In this document: piece by piece, positions 38,821-43,190 of the stretch | Layout: each line of letters begins with the position of its first letter | How positions within the stretch are numbered: the first letter of the stretch is position 1 | DNA from: Polaribacter sp. | Lineage (GTDB): Bacteria > Bacteroidota > Bacteroidia > Flavobacteriales > Flavobacteriaceae | NCBI GenBank assembly: GCA_018663625.1 | Contig: JABJPX010000046.1 | Coordinates: forward strand, 1 to 64,000 | DNA length: 64,000 nucleotides | Direction of reading: 5' to 3' | The notes under the pieces: generated by a model | The model's database searches: none | What the model was told of the DNA's origin: nothing | Seen by the model: only the letters and a program-made list of their open reading frames with translations | Translations under genes and position numbers: made by a program

Positions 38821-39360
38821 ATGAGCAAAAAAACCTTACTTAACGCTAAGGATATTGAAATTATCTTACATCGATTGGCGTGCCAGTTAATCGAAAATCA
38901 TAACGATTTTTCTAATACAGTTTTAATTGGATTGCAACCAAGGGGTTCCTTTTTAGCGAAGAGACTTTTAAGTTTGCTTGAAAATGAATACCAGATAAAA
39001 GAGATACAATTAGGCTCTTTAGACATTACCTTTTACAGAGATGATTTTAGGCGCCGTGAAATTCCATTAGAAGCAAATACAACAGAAATCGACTTTTTAG
39101 TTGAAGACAAGAAAGTAGTTTTCATTGACGATGTATTGTTTTCAGGGCGAAGTGTTCGTGCTGCGCTGACTGCAATTCAGTCGTATGGAAGACCTAAAAA
39201 CGTAGAATTATTGGTTTTAATAGACAGAAGGTTTAGCAGAGACTTACCAATTCAACCAAATTACAGAGGACGACAAGTAGATGCAATTAATGAAGAAAAA
39301 GTATTGGTTACTTGGAAAGAAACACATAAAAAAGACGCAGTCTATATAGAAATCACCTAA
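38821..39360 (+). CDS. pyrR: PyrR: pyr regulator / uracil phosphoribosyltransferase
   Basis: A type I phosphoribosyltransferase-fold protein that in Bacillus binds pyr mRNA in response to UMP and also has UPRTase activity. The 179 residues show the PRPP loop VVFIDDVLFSGRSVRAALTAI (about 98-118), the GLQPRGSFLAKRL motif and the C-terminal LVDR-like LIDRRFSRDLPIQPNYRGRQ. It has its own exact promoter and is 1 base upstream of pyrB. Confidence 0.95.
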   Translation: MSKKTLLNAKDIEIILHRLACQLIENHNDFSNTVLIGLQPRGSFLAKRLLSLLENEYQIKEIQLGSLDITFYRDDFRRREIPLEANTTEIDFLVEDKKVVFIDDVLFSGRSVRAALTAIQSYGRPKNVELLVLIDRRFSRDLPIQPNYRGRQVDAINEEKVLVTWKETHKKDAVYIEIT

Positions 39361-39361
39361 T

Positions 39362-40300
39362 ATGAAACAGCTAAGTGTAGAACATTTATTGGGCATAAAA
39401 TATCTAAAAAATACAGATATCGATCTTATTTTTGAAACTGCAGATCAATTTAAAGAAGTCATTAATAGACCCATTAAAAAAGTTCCTTCTCTAAGAGACA
39501 TAACCATTGCTAATTTATTTTTTGAAAATAGTACAAGAACTAAATTAAGCTTCGAATTGGCAGAAAAAAGACTTTCCGCTGATGTGATCAATTTTTCAGC
39601 AAGTCAATCCTCCGTAAAGAAAGGAGAAACTTTAATTGATACTGTTAACAATATTTTAGCCATGAAGGTTGACATTGTTGTCATGCGACATGCAAGTGTT
39701 GGTGCAGGTGTTTTCTTATCCAAACATGTAGATGCAAAAATCATAAATGCTGGTGATGGCACTCATGAACATCCTACACAGGCATTATTAGATTCCTATT
39801 CGATCAGAGAAAAACTAGGGAGTGTTAAAGGAAAAAAAATATTAATTGTTGGAGACATTCTTCACTCTAGAGTGGCTTTGTCTAATATCTTCGCATTGCA
39901 ACTACAAGGAGCAGAAGTAAAAGTTTGTGGCCCAACAACCCTAATTCCTAAATACATTACAAGCCTAGGAGTCACTGTAGAAACAAATCTTAAAAAAGCT
40001 TTAGAATGGTGCGATGTTGCCAATGTATTGCGAGTTCAACACGAAAGAATGGATATTAAATACTTTCCTTCAACTAGAGAATACACACAGCTTTTTGGCA
40101 TCAATCAGGAAATTCTGGAAGGTCTCGACAAAAAGATTGTGATTATGCACCCTGGCCCAATTAATAGAGGTGTTGAAATTACAAGTGATGTTGCAGATTC
40201 TAACAGTTCGATCATCTTAAATCAAGTAGAGAACGGAGTTGCAGTAAGAATGGCAGTCATTTACTTACTGGCACAACAAATTAAAAGAGAGACACTTTAA
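39362..40300 (+). CDS. pyrB: Aspartate carbamoyltransferase catalytic subunit
   Basis: Second step of pyrimidine synthesis: carbamoyl phosphate plus aspartate to carbamoyl aspartate. The 312 residues contain FFENSTRTKLSFELAEKRL (carbamoyl-phosphate site), GDGTHEHPTQALLDSYSI, and IMHPGPINRGVEI. No pyrI regulatory subunit is adjacent, as expected for PyrR-linked enzymes. It directly follows pyrR. Confidence 0.97.
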   Translation: MKQLSVEHLLGIKYLKNTDIDLIFETADQFKEVINRPIKKVPSLRDITIANLFFENSTRTKLSFELAEKRLSADVINFSASQSSVKKGETLIDTVNNILAMKVDIVVMRHASVGAGVFLSKHVDAKIINAGDGTHEHPTQALLDSYSIREKLGSVKGKKILIVGDILHSRVALSNIFALQLQGAEVKVCGPTTLIPKYITSLGVTVETNLKKALEWCDVANVLRVQHERMDIKYFPSTREYTQLFGINQEILEGLDKKIVIMHPGPINRGVEITSDVADSNSSIILNQVENGVAVRMAVIYLLAQQIKRETL

Positions 40301-40327: not shown

Positions 40328-40660
40328 ATGAAGATTGAAAACAAAGACGGATATACTCTTTTTAGTACCGATGAAAATATCCTTCAGGAAGCTTTAGATA
40401 CCTTTTTCTCGACCGTAGAAAAACACAGCACCGAAAACATTTTTTTTGATATTTCTGACAATCTTAACATAACTCCAAAAGAATTTATGTTATTTTTGAA
40501 TATCGCTTCTGCTAAAAAAGAAAATGGAACTTCATTTGTAGTTATCATTAAATCGTTAGATATTGATGCATTGCCAGAAGAAATAAATGTGGTCCCAACG
40601 CTTCAAGAAGCTGAAGACATTCTTGAAATGGAAAATATTGAGAGAGCATTAGGCTTTTAA
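40328..40660 (+). CDS. Small STAS-like protein
   Basis: The 110 residues look like a STAS/anti-anti-sigma fold: IFFDISDNLNITPKEFMLFL resembles the central strand and helix, FVVIIKSLDIDALPEEINVV a following strand, and VPTLQEAEDILEMENIERAL the usual C-terminal 'pT.eeA' helix. The usual phosphorylated Ser is not obvious. In other flavobacteria this gene can be mislabelled from its RNase Z neighbour (from memory). It lies between pyrB and the sorting-domain protein in a run of closely spaced genes. Function unknown. Confidence 0.6.
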   Translation: MKIENKDGYTLFSTDENILQEALDTFFSTVEKHSTENIFFDISDNLNITPKEFMLFLNIASAKKENGTSFVVIIKSLDIDALPEEINVVPTLQEAEDILEMENIERALGF

Positions 40661-40673
40661 AAAGCAATGAACA

Positions 40674-40994
40674 ATGATAAAAAAACTACTTTTTATTTTA
40701 TTCTTATTCAACATCACGTATAGTTTTTCGCAAGAAAAATCGATTACACAGCTGTCTGCTGCGCCAAATCCATTTATAACTTCTACAGAAATTCATTTTA
40801 ATGCAAACCAAGCTGGTATTATCATTTTTAATGTTAAAAATATTTTAGGTAAAACAGTACATAAAAAACAGCTCTTCGTACAAAAAGGAGAAAACACAAT
40901 CTCTTTCTTTAAGCAGCAGTTATTACCCGGAATTTATATCTATTCTATTCAAAATAAAAAGAGCATCGTTTCAAAACGCCTTGTTATTCAATGA
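40674..40994 (+). CDS. Signal peptide plus T9SS type A sorting domain only
   Basis: The 106 residues are a signal peptide (1-19, ending SFS) followed at once by a complete T9SS C-terminal sorting domain. The hallmarks are LSAAPNPFITSTEIHF, an IIIFNVKNILGKTV strand pair ('vyd..Gk.v'), KGENTISF, LLPGIYIYSIQN and a KRLVIQ end. There is no cargo domain between them. Normally such a domain directs a large protein through the type IX system to the surface. The gene overlaps rnz by 4 bases. Confidence 0.85.
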   Translation: MIKKLLFILFLFNITYSFSQEKSITQLSAAPNPFITSTEIHFNANQAGIIIFNVKNILGKTVHKKQLFVQKGENTISFFKQQLLPGIYIYSIQNKKSIVSKRLVIQ

Positions 40995-41908
40995 GTTTAA
41001 AATTAACCATTCTGGGCTGTCATTCGGCAACTCCTCGCGCAAATGCACATCCAACTTCACAATATTTAGAGATCAACAATCGGCATTTTTTGATAGATTG
41101 TGGCGAAGGTACACAACGACAAATGCGACAGCATAAAGTTGGTTTTACAAAAATTACTCATATTTTCATTTCTCATTTACATGGAGATCATTTTTATGGT
41201 TTGGTGGGACTCCTATCTACTTTTGGAATTTTAAATCGAGAAAAAGAATTGCATATTTATGGTCCTAAAGGAATTAAAGAGGTGACTTTACTTTCTTTAA
41301 AAATATCTCAATCTCATGCAAAGTACAAGATGATTTTTCATGAGTTAGTTTCCAAAGAGAGTGAGGTTATTTTTGAGGACGAGAAGGTCTCTGTAAGTAC
41401 AATTCCATTAAGACATCGCGTTTACACAAATGGGTATTTGTTTACTGAAAAAGAAAGTTCTTTAAAATTACACATGGAGAACATCGCAAATTATGAAGAA
41501 ATTGATCGTGCAGACTATCTAAATATAAAGGCTGGAAAAGACATTCATCTACCAACAGGGGAAGTCATTCCCAATTCAGAATTAACACTGCCTCCAGCAA
41601 AACCAAAACGTTATGCTTTTTGTAGTGATACTACTTATAAACCAGATATTGTTCCATTAATAAAAAACGTAGATTTGCTTTATCATGAAGCAACTTTTCT
41701 TTCAGACAGAGAAGATTTGGCTCTAAAAACAAAACATTCTACAGCAAAGCAAGCAGCACAAATAGCAAAGGAAGCAAATGTAAAACAGCTCGTTTTAGGA
41801 CATTATTCTGGCCGCTATAAAGAGATATCAGCATTTAAAACAGAGGCTACAAAAGTCTTTAAAAACACAGATGTTGCAGTAGCAGGGAAAGTTTTTACTG
41901 TGAATTAA
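40991..41908 (+). CDS. rnz: Ribonuclease Z
   Basis: A metallo-beta-lactamase-fold endonuclease that trims tRNA 3' ends. The 305 residues carry the zinc motif FISHLHGDHFYGL, FLIDCGEGTQRQMRQHKVG near the N-terminus, the PxKxxxFCSDT segment PAKPKRYAFCSDTTY, the YHEATF loop, and a late LVLGHYSGRYKE. Length fits the short bacterial form. ATGA overlap with the preceding gene suggests coupling. Confidence 0.96.
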   Translation: MSLKLTILGCHSATPRANAHPTSQYLEINNRHFLIDCGEGTQRQMRQHKVGFTKITHIFISHLHGDHFYGLVGLLSTFGILNREKELHIYGPKGIKEVTLLSLKISQSHAKYKMIFHELVSKESEVIFEDEKVSVSTIPLRHRVYTNGYLFTEKESSLKLHMENIANYEEIDRADYLNIKAGKDIHLPTGEVIPNSELTLPPAKPKRYAFCSDTTYKPDIVPLIKNVDLLYHEATFLSDREDLALKTKHSTAKQAAQIAKEANVKQLVLGHYSGRYKEISAFKTEATKVFKNTDVAVAGKVFTVN

Positions 41909-42416: not shown

Positions 42417-43190
42417 TTAAGAGAAAATTTTATCGATTTTTTGTTTTTCTTCTTCTGCCAAAGCTGCGTCTACTAAAATACGTCCACTGTGCTCGTCGAT
42501 AGTAATTCTTTTTCTATTTGCAATTTCTAATTGAACTTGTGGTGGTATTGTAAAATAAGATCCTCCTGATGCACCTCTTTCAATAACAACAACCGCTAAG
42601 CCATTTTTCACTTTCGTTCTTATTCTATTATAAGCCGTAAATAAATGTGGGTCTAAAGATTTTGAATACTCTTCTGATTTCTCAGCTAAGAGTTTTTCTT
42701 CTTTTTCTGTTTCTTTTAAAATGGCATCCAATTCAGATTTTTTATGCCCTAAATGCTGCTCTTGCTTATCTAATTTCTCTTTAGTTGTTGCTATTACTAA
42801 TTCTTTCTGAGCAATTTTAGCTTTAAACTCGTTGATTCTCTTGTCGGCCAATTGAATTTCTAAATCTTGAAATTCAATTTCTTTGGCTAAGGAATCAAAC
42901 TCTCTGTTGTTACGAACTTTTTGTTGTTGCTCTTCGTATTTTTTCATCAACGACTTCGATTCGTCAATTGCTAATTTCTTATTGTTGATATCTGTTTCTA
43001 AATTAGAGATATCTTCACTTAAATTTGAAACACGTGTGTTTAAACCGGCAACCTCATCAGCTAAATCTTCAACTTCTAAAGGTAATTCTCCTCTAACGTT
43101 TCTAATTTCGTCAATTCTAGAGTCGATCAATTGTAAATCGTAAAGTGCTCTTAATTTTTGTTCAACAGAAACTTCTTTCTTCTTTGCCAT
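42417..43190 (-). CDS. Coiled-coil protein with a cysteine-less zinc-ribbon domain
   Basis: The 257 residues form a long coiled-coil hairpin (about 10-180) and a C-terminal domain that aligns by eye with the C4 zinc ribbon of this family. The family usually has GACGGC...CEYCGR; here the sequence is ERGASGGSYFTIPPQ and IDEHSGRILVD. The four expected ligands are therefore Ser208, Ser211, Asp232 and Ser235, so no zinc can bind there. The fold around them (IPPQVQLEI, GRILVDAAL) is kept. Family function is unclear. It is 2 bases downstream of the NIF3 gene, a conserved pairing. Confidence 0.85.
   Translation of the reverse strand: MAKKKEVSVEQKLRALYDLQLIDSRIDEIRNVRGELPLEVEDLADEVAGLNTRVSNLSEDISNLETDINNKKLAIDESKSLMKKYEEQQQKVRNNREFDSLAKEIEFQDLEIQLADKRINEFKAKIAQKELVIATTKEKLDKQEQHLGHKKSELDAILKETEKEEKLLAEKSEEYSKSLDPHLFTAYNRIRTKVKNGLAVVVIERGASGGSYFTIPPQVQLEIANRKRITIDEHSGRILVDAALAEEEKQKIDKIFS

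Follow-up and report, generated by a model that had tools for sequence, protein, structure and literature searches.

A short protein made of a signal peptide and a type A C-terminal sorting domain (CTD) of the type IX secretion system (T9SS) is encoded directly before rnz in the window, i.e. the whole stretch of 64,000 nucleotides of Polaribacter sp. DNA that was analysed. This cargo-less protein appears to be maintained by purifying selection, it probably stems from a T9SS cargo gene that occupied the same slot, and we tentatively propose that the CTD itself is its working part. Our search of open-access texts found no paper on a CTD protein in the rnz slot.

Results

A cargo-less CTD protein encoded before rnz

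The 106-residue protein is encoded on the forward strand at positions 40674..40994, from ATG to TGA, and is matched by two sorting domain profiles, TIGR04183 on residues 30-106 (39.4 bits, cut-off 23) and PF18962 on residues 31-105 (31.9 bits, cut-off 27). A signal peptide was read by eye at residues 1-19 (40674..40730, +), and Gln20 (40731-40733, +), invariant in 40 of the 40 aligned orthologues, is the predicted new N terminus, which fits the Q-rule of Bacteroidetes as given in the available text of two papers (PMC5837995, PMC10653852). Export by Sec, cleavage in front of Gln20 and folding in the periplasm are the predicted steps. In the structural model the first strand begins already at residue 24, leaving no cargo between the signal peptide and the CTD. 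The profiles and the model thus bear out the initial annotation, which had described a signal peptide and a type A sorting domain without cargo; the domain, given there as 85 residues long, does follow directly on the signal peptide, but the matched part counts 77 residues in a mature protein of 87. Searched by sequence, the PDB gave only two weak matches (E 0.21 and 0.36).

The ORF belongs to a row of genes that all lie on the forward strand, in the order pyrR-like phosphoribosyltransferase (38821..39360, PF00156), the putative pyrB, a conserved neighbour (39362..40300), a small gene that we named STAS-like (40328..40660; no Pfam match over the cut-off), the CTD ORF and rnz (ribonuclease Z, 40991..41908; NF000801 and TIGR02651). 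The stop codon of the ORF and the start codon of rnz share the four bases ATGA (40991..40994, +), which confirms the overlap noted initially.

Predicted fold and CTD motifs

An AlphaFold2 model built from 40 orthologues (pLDDT 92.1) shows seven strands between residues 24 and 105 (24-30, 37-44, 48-55, 61-69, 72-79, 86-93 and 98-105), so that the predicted CTD sandwich takes up residues 24-106 (40743..40991, +). Structural alignments carried out with VIA-align 2 superimposed the model on the CTDs of mirolase (8qb1; Z 11.4, 77 residues, 1.7 A), PorU (6za2; Z 11.1, 85 residues, 2.0 A) and PorZ (5m11; Z 10.6, 79 residues, 1.8 A). It should be noted that unrelated Ig-like and FnIII domains tie with the solved CTDs in this comparison, and that Foldseek placed GH3 enzymes in its top rows and PorU at rank 35. 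Because such unrelated domains score equally high, the predicted fold alone is not diagnostic and identity as a CTD is taken from the sequence profile: with an E value of 0.01 as upper limit, TIGR04183 matches all 40 members of the alignment. Single members also gave stray NCBIfam matches (E 0.0004-0.01), which look like chance.

Entropy among the 40 orthologues was low at residues 30-34 (0.41 bits), at the C terminus (0.63 bits) and in strand 6 (0.64 bits), compared to a mean of 1.51 bits for the mature protein; the loop between strands 3 and 4 (residues 55-61, 40836..40856, +) also carries a low-entropy motif (0.80 bits). The N-terminal stretch, by contrast, varies in length and in sequence (residues 21-28, 1.87 bits). 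The loop and the C terminus are important for secretion in P. gingivalis according to the available text of PMC11285876. We had considered motif conservation as a sign of contact with PorV and rejected this argument, since the type A motifs specify the fold and not an interface, a near-invariant Lys being the sole possible exception (PMC10994853, available text).

The protein ends with the strand VSKRLVIQ (residues 99-106, 40968..40991, +), with Lys at -6 and Arg at -5, a pair found in 90 of 94 slot ORFs. This Arg aligns on the place where 12 cargo CTDs have Lys; counted from the end in 34 CTDs of long ORFs, the residue is Lys in 18 and Arg in 5. In a 12-row alignment of short slot proteins with long ones that carry cargo (see below), the Arg is invariant, indicating a feature of the lineage that does not go with the absence of cargo. 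As to the other motifs, PNP is lost in three slot orthologues, L249, L250 and L051. The first two keep most of the other CTD motifs, and L051, from genome G016, is also without the loop motif; the G016 copy is nevertheless still modelled with seven strands (pLDDT 84.9).

Distribution of the slot gene in the genus and in Flavobacteriaceae

A profile search of genome contigs confirmed 118 relatives, of which 80 were kept; these come from Polaribacter, Tenacibaculum, Lutibacter and MAGs, and in all 80 loci the CTD protein lies directly before rnz. To assess the spread of the gene, an HMM of slot proteins was run on ORFs ending near rnz. The genus sample, from a GTDB genus that spans the names Polaribacter and Tenacibaculum, comprised 97 genomes with an rnz match in 94, and 93 loci were inspected, G212 being left out as its rnz is split over two contigs. 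The HMM matched in 86 of these 93 loci, and in 84 of them at 90 bits or more, i.e. as a full-length copy placed between a STAS-like gene and rnz, L184 being counted although its motifs are damaged. The two weaker matches are L196, which is 85 aa long and has lost the motifs, and L264 of genome G230, whose slot gene contains frame breaks. In G230, rnz, PorU and the slot gene all have frame breaks or stops, so that errors in the sequence are a better explanation than decay. Together with the loci without a match (L180, L203, L257, L259, L260, L261 and L263), 9 of the 93 loci are without a copy of at least 90 bits. Decayed remnants were recognised in L196 and L203 within the genus and in L042 outside it.

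In the family sample (149 Flavobacteriaceae genomes of 148 genera, rnz match in 145, all 145 loci inspected), the HMM matched in 10 loci from 9 genera, the carriers being G000, G131, G113, G047, G146, G033, G119, G025, G003 and G016. The slot of the non-carriers is empty or holds another ORF, often of 154-160 aa. An ORF of this size fills the slot in many genera without the CTD protein (e.g. L086:2059-2529, +), and the one tested matched DUF3291 (PF11695). Candidates for relocated slot orthologues were all rejected: the short matches outside the slot in G111, G007 and G130 belong to a second CTD family, the frames of L265, L270 and L271 are cut short or partial, L272 encodes a protein with a cargo part, and the ORF of L268 looks unrelated by eye.

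Across genera, 92 slot orthologues measure 100-121 aa and none has a cargo. The initial annotation had named as contrary evidence a cargo lost only here, or an ORF absent or degraded in relatives. The cargo is in fact missing in all ten family carriers and in the orthologues of the genus. The second point applies in part, absence or decay having been encountered in 9 of 93 genus loci, in most other genera sampled and in the three remnants; 84 of 93 genus loci keep a full-length copy.

Selection on the ORF

NG86 dN/dS of the ORF ranged from 0.02 to 0.47 with a median of 0.12 in 24 chosen close pairs, which are not independent of each other; the highest value comes from a pair with a dS of 0.08. 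The ratio was lower than that of the STAS-like gene in 16 of 21 pairs, equal in 1 and higher in 4, and that of rnz was mostly lower than that of the ORF (0.02-0.12 in 22 pairs). Because of these ratios and of the orthologues in the same slot, the ORF is, on sequence evidence, more than a chance frame and, judged from dN/dS, the cargo-less remnant is under purifying selection. This agrees with the initial proposal that conservation beside rnz would mean a role of its own.

The selection should not be taken for unusually strong conservation, an idea that we rejected: compared across genera, 10 slot proteins share on average 47.0% of their residues and 12 chosen cargo CTDs 47.8%, which is ordinary for a CTD. 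These 12 controls were chosen from 19, the 7 dropped being less alike. A label of the controls as M36 peptidases was also abandoned, as the NCBIfam matches fell on the CTD only (3 tested) and no Pfam peptidase domain was found in the C-terminal part of the 2 control proteins tested.

The ORF might be kept only for translational coupling to rnz, or for a short N-terminal peptide released by PorU, and the ATGA that forms the last four bases of 70 of the 94 slot ORFs would suit such a function. Coupling requires no particular protein sequence, yet dN/dS is low, and a released peptide agrees badly with the variability of residues 21-28 and with the existence of carriers without PorU. We find either scarcely credible.

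PorU and other T9SS components in carriers

PorU was found over the cut-off in 22 of 25 genomes tested, and the three genomes without it, G003, G016 and G047, are all carriers of the slot gene. PorU is present in the window genome (G000). In the family set, a PorU match (E up to 1e-50) was obtained in 102 of 149 genomes and none in 47; 7 of the 10 carriers have it compared to 95 of the 139 others (missing in 3/10 and 44/139, Fisher p = 1.0). A single contig of G047 carries porV and gldJ with no porU between them, and a clean gap is seen beside porV: gldJ (TIGR03524, E 1.8e-120, partial) starts 569 bases after PorV. PorV follows immediately on the end of PorU in G113. Conversely, PorU is retained, entire or fragmented, in 11 genomes that have no intact slot gene (G213, G243, G164, G211, G158, G216, G155, G162, G002, G058 and G116).

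These data bear on the suggestion, also made in the initial annotation, that the protein is a decoy or modulator of the PorU cleavage step. A weak profile match to the PorU CTD (E 2.5e-5) speaks for it. The gene is kept in G047, G016 and G003 without PorU, in G047 with a clean gap, PorU is kept without an intact slot gene in the 11 genomes listed, and no association between the two was found in the family set, so that a decoy or modulator role at PorU is highly improbable.

The PorU-less carriers G047 (L357) and G016 (L358) have SprA and PorV, and GldM is present in G003, G016 and G047. No SprA or PorV match was obtained in the 80% complete assembly of G003. Matches to TIGR04183 are few in these carriers (9 in G047, 8 in G003 and 2 in G016).

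The protein might also be independent of T9SS, leaving the envelope by another route or staying in it, with the sandwich as a binding domain. As reported in the available text of PMC7712824, the medium of mutants in sprA or porV contains a 112-aa CTD protein, Fjoh_0547, and the machinery is not needed for PorA to reach the surface; the motif drift with retained fold in G016 and the G003 assembly point the same way. On the other side, the CTD motifs are otherwise kept, GldM occurs in all three PorU-less carriers, Fjoh_0547 is likened to the slot protein by description and not by sequence, and the Arg near the C terminus, being common to the cargo-bearing slot relatives, no longer supports independence. 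We place independence from T9SS second among the explanations and consider it rather unlikely.

Cargo-bearing relatives and origin of the short protein

The search was extended to the order with 196 genomes, and 11 new loci were taken, of which 8 come from other Flavobacteriales families (f2, f6, f8 and f11; L395-L402). Other families also gave many further frames with about 250-310 aa, together with some that have 100-133 aa and in several cases lie at contig ends; all of these were recorded irrespective of slot position. Among the eight loci L395-L402, the CTD gene is immediately followed by rnz in six, L400 breaking off at this point and L397 having no detected rnz, and it is preceded by pyrB in six, L399 and L401 starting at contig ends. 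Six of the proteins are complete, with 255-290 aa that comprise a signal peptide, a region of about 150-190 aa and the CTD; those of L399 and L401 are cut. Our assumption that no slot homologue carries a cargo was consequently wrong. By eye, the cargo regions have motifs in common across loci. Nothing in Pfam matched them up to E 0.1 (7 tested), nor did anything in NCBIfam up to E 0.01 (6 tested), and their best match in the window is the region 42894-43055 (E 0.008).

The relatedness of the long to the short proteins was assessed with an HMM built from 10 short slot proteins. All 8 proteins of L395-L402 scored 73.7-92.2 bits, compared to 26.2-68.8 bits for the whole set of 19 cargo CTDs and 32.8-46.5 bits for six proteins of the second cargo-less family. 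In a tree of CTDs, L395 fell among the short slot proteins with modest support. A tree of rnz and pyrB, comprising 145 family loci and 6 of L395-L402 and rooted on the latter, resolved the carriers as a basal grade of Flavobacteriaceae, with supports of 0.13-1.0 and with L395 not monophyletic with the other outgroups. Parsimony on this tree gave 'present' as the root state and 5 changes, all readable as losses, one of which covers a group of 131 tips without the gene. An earlier reading, a single gain in one clade (Fitch parsimony on a midpoint-rooted tree, 9 changes), was replaced by this outgroup-rooted one.

From this tree we infer that the slot gene was ancestral and that most of Flavobacteriaceae would have lost it later; the loss has continued within the genus, as shown by the decayed remnants L196 and L203. 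The cargo is present in the outgroup and absent from all ten family carriers, which is explained most simply by a single loss near the base of Flavobacteriaceae, before the sampled carriers diverged. A later fusion of the cargo in the other families would be a less simple explanation, given the resemblance of the middle regions in four of them.

The initial annotation had suggested a relic of a lost cargo gene, which holds for the origin, given the cargo-bearing genes in the same slot elsewhere, and not for the present state of a remnant under purifying selection. That the protein is a relic on its way out, a lingering tag, could also be argued from the repeated losses, the remnants L042, L196 and L203 and the damaged motifs of L184. 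However, the median dN/dS and the narrow length range of the 92 orthologues reveal a protein too constrained for a dead tag, and we consider this very unlikely.

A second family of cargo-less CTD proteins

A second cargo-less family (A3), found in L266, L267 and L269, likewise combines a signal peptide with a CTD in 110-116 aa (e.g. L267:2524-2874, -; L269:2373-2705, +). Counted by hand, at least 64 of 149 genomes have a CTD match that starts within the first 12 positions of a frame of at most 175 aa, these matches not necessarily being all of one family. The rnz-slot family is less common than this second family. In the 30 best loci (L362-L391), the gene lies opposite an OmpR-type response regulator with an adjoining histidine kinase in 26, at a gap of 130-285 bp; no regulator was seen in the available stretch of the other 4. 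The C terminus has Arg at -6 in 29 of 30 proteins and Lys at -5 in 30 of 30. In 16 of the 30 loci, including L362, the gene has a neighbour that encodes a LuxE-like acyl-protein synthetase (PF04443 in the single case tested).

The slot protein might also be a signal or regulator, a free CTD that would inform a sensor of the state of secretion, in the way that PorXY-SigP is affected by PorA in P. gingivalis. The precedent of PorA (PMC7712824, available text) and the regulator/kinase pair opposite the second family in 26 of 30 loci favour this possibility. Nevertheless, no sensor gene is found among the neighbours in the window row and the N-terminal FimH-like domain of PorA is missing here, which makes such a role unlikely for the slot protein.

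A broader possibility, speculative and rather doubtful, is that the cargo-less CTDs of Flavobacteriaceae form a separate class of dedicated CTD ligands, with the task of controlling type IX secretion or of reporting on it. If so, at least two selected families would exist, one born by cargo loss before rnz and the other placed opposite a two-component system, and the CTD would have a regulatory function besides its use as an address tag.

Discussion

The explanation that we put first, tentatively and at somewhat less than even confidence, is that the CTD itself is the working part of the slot protein, as a putative small ligand of the PorV-SprA translocon and not a PorU substrate. An old T9SS cargo gene in the pyrB-rnz slot would have lost its cargo while the tag survived, and this CTD, as a blank substrate, may occupy, prime or pace the PorV-SprA site, or leave the cell whole. 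The domain itself is taken as the working part because there is no cargo, a PorU role is disfavoured and the N-terminal stretch varies; the translocon comes first because nearly 40% of the surface of a CTD becomes buried inside the SprA-PorV pore, where contacts are extensive (PMC10994853, available text). The persistence of the gene in the PorU-less G047 and G016, which have SprA, PorV and GldM, is counted in favour of this proposal.

Several observations count against a role at the translocon. Motif conservation is no proof of binding, as the motifs specify the fold; CTD conservation is ordinary, Arg stands in place of Lys (as it also does in the cargo-bearing slot relatives), motifs have changed in G016 and the gene has been lost repeatedly. 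G003 and the report that a small CTD protein is present in the medium when sprA or porV is mutated (PMC7712824) weigh in the same direction. It should also be noted that, in the available text of PMC12704123, no free RgpB CTD was found in P. gingivalis W50 and proteolysis was suggested, so that a free CTD may be short-lived.

A selected tag without cargo cannot be explained as an address label. With this protein, nature provides a minimal probe for the action of a CTD alone in T9SS, whether it binds PorV-SprA, leaves the cell or signals; its persistence without PorU separates a CTD role at the translocon from one at the sortase, and the cargo-bearing relatives and the short protein make up a before-and-after pair.

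Compared to known systems, the protein resembles a type A CTD (TIGR04183/PF18962) in profile score, motifs, seven-strand sandwich and Sec signal peptide, and differs in the missing cargo and in having Arg, preceded by Lys, where the 12 aligned cargo CTDs have Lys. The CTDs of PorU, PorZ and mirolase (6za2, 5m11 and 8qb1) share the fold, but form the terminal part of large proteins. PorA (PGN_0123) of Porphyromonas gingivalis is also a small CTD protein, but its 246 aa include the FimH-like N-terminal domain, for which the 106-aa window protein has no residues left. Fjoh_0547 of Flavobacterium johnsoniae (112 aa) is alike in size and make-up, as described in the available text of PMC7712824, and may belong to the second family, whose member in L266 also has 112 aa; that family ends with RK where the rnz-slot family has KR. 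The cargo-bearing slot gene of L395-L402 differs from the short protein in a cargo region without Pfam or NCBIfam match and shares with it the slot, the CTD and the Arg near the end; this gene of the other families is the likely source of the short protein.
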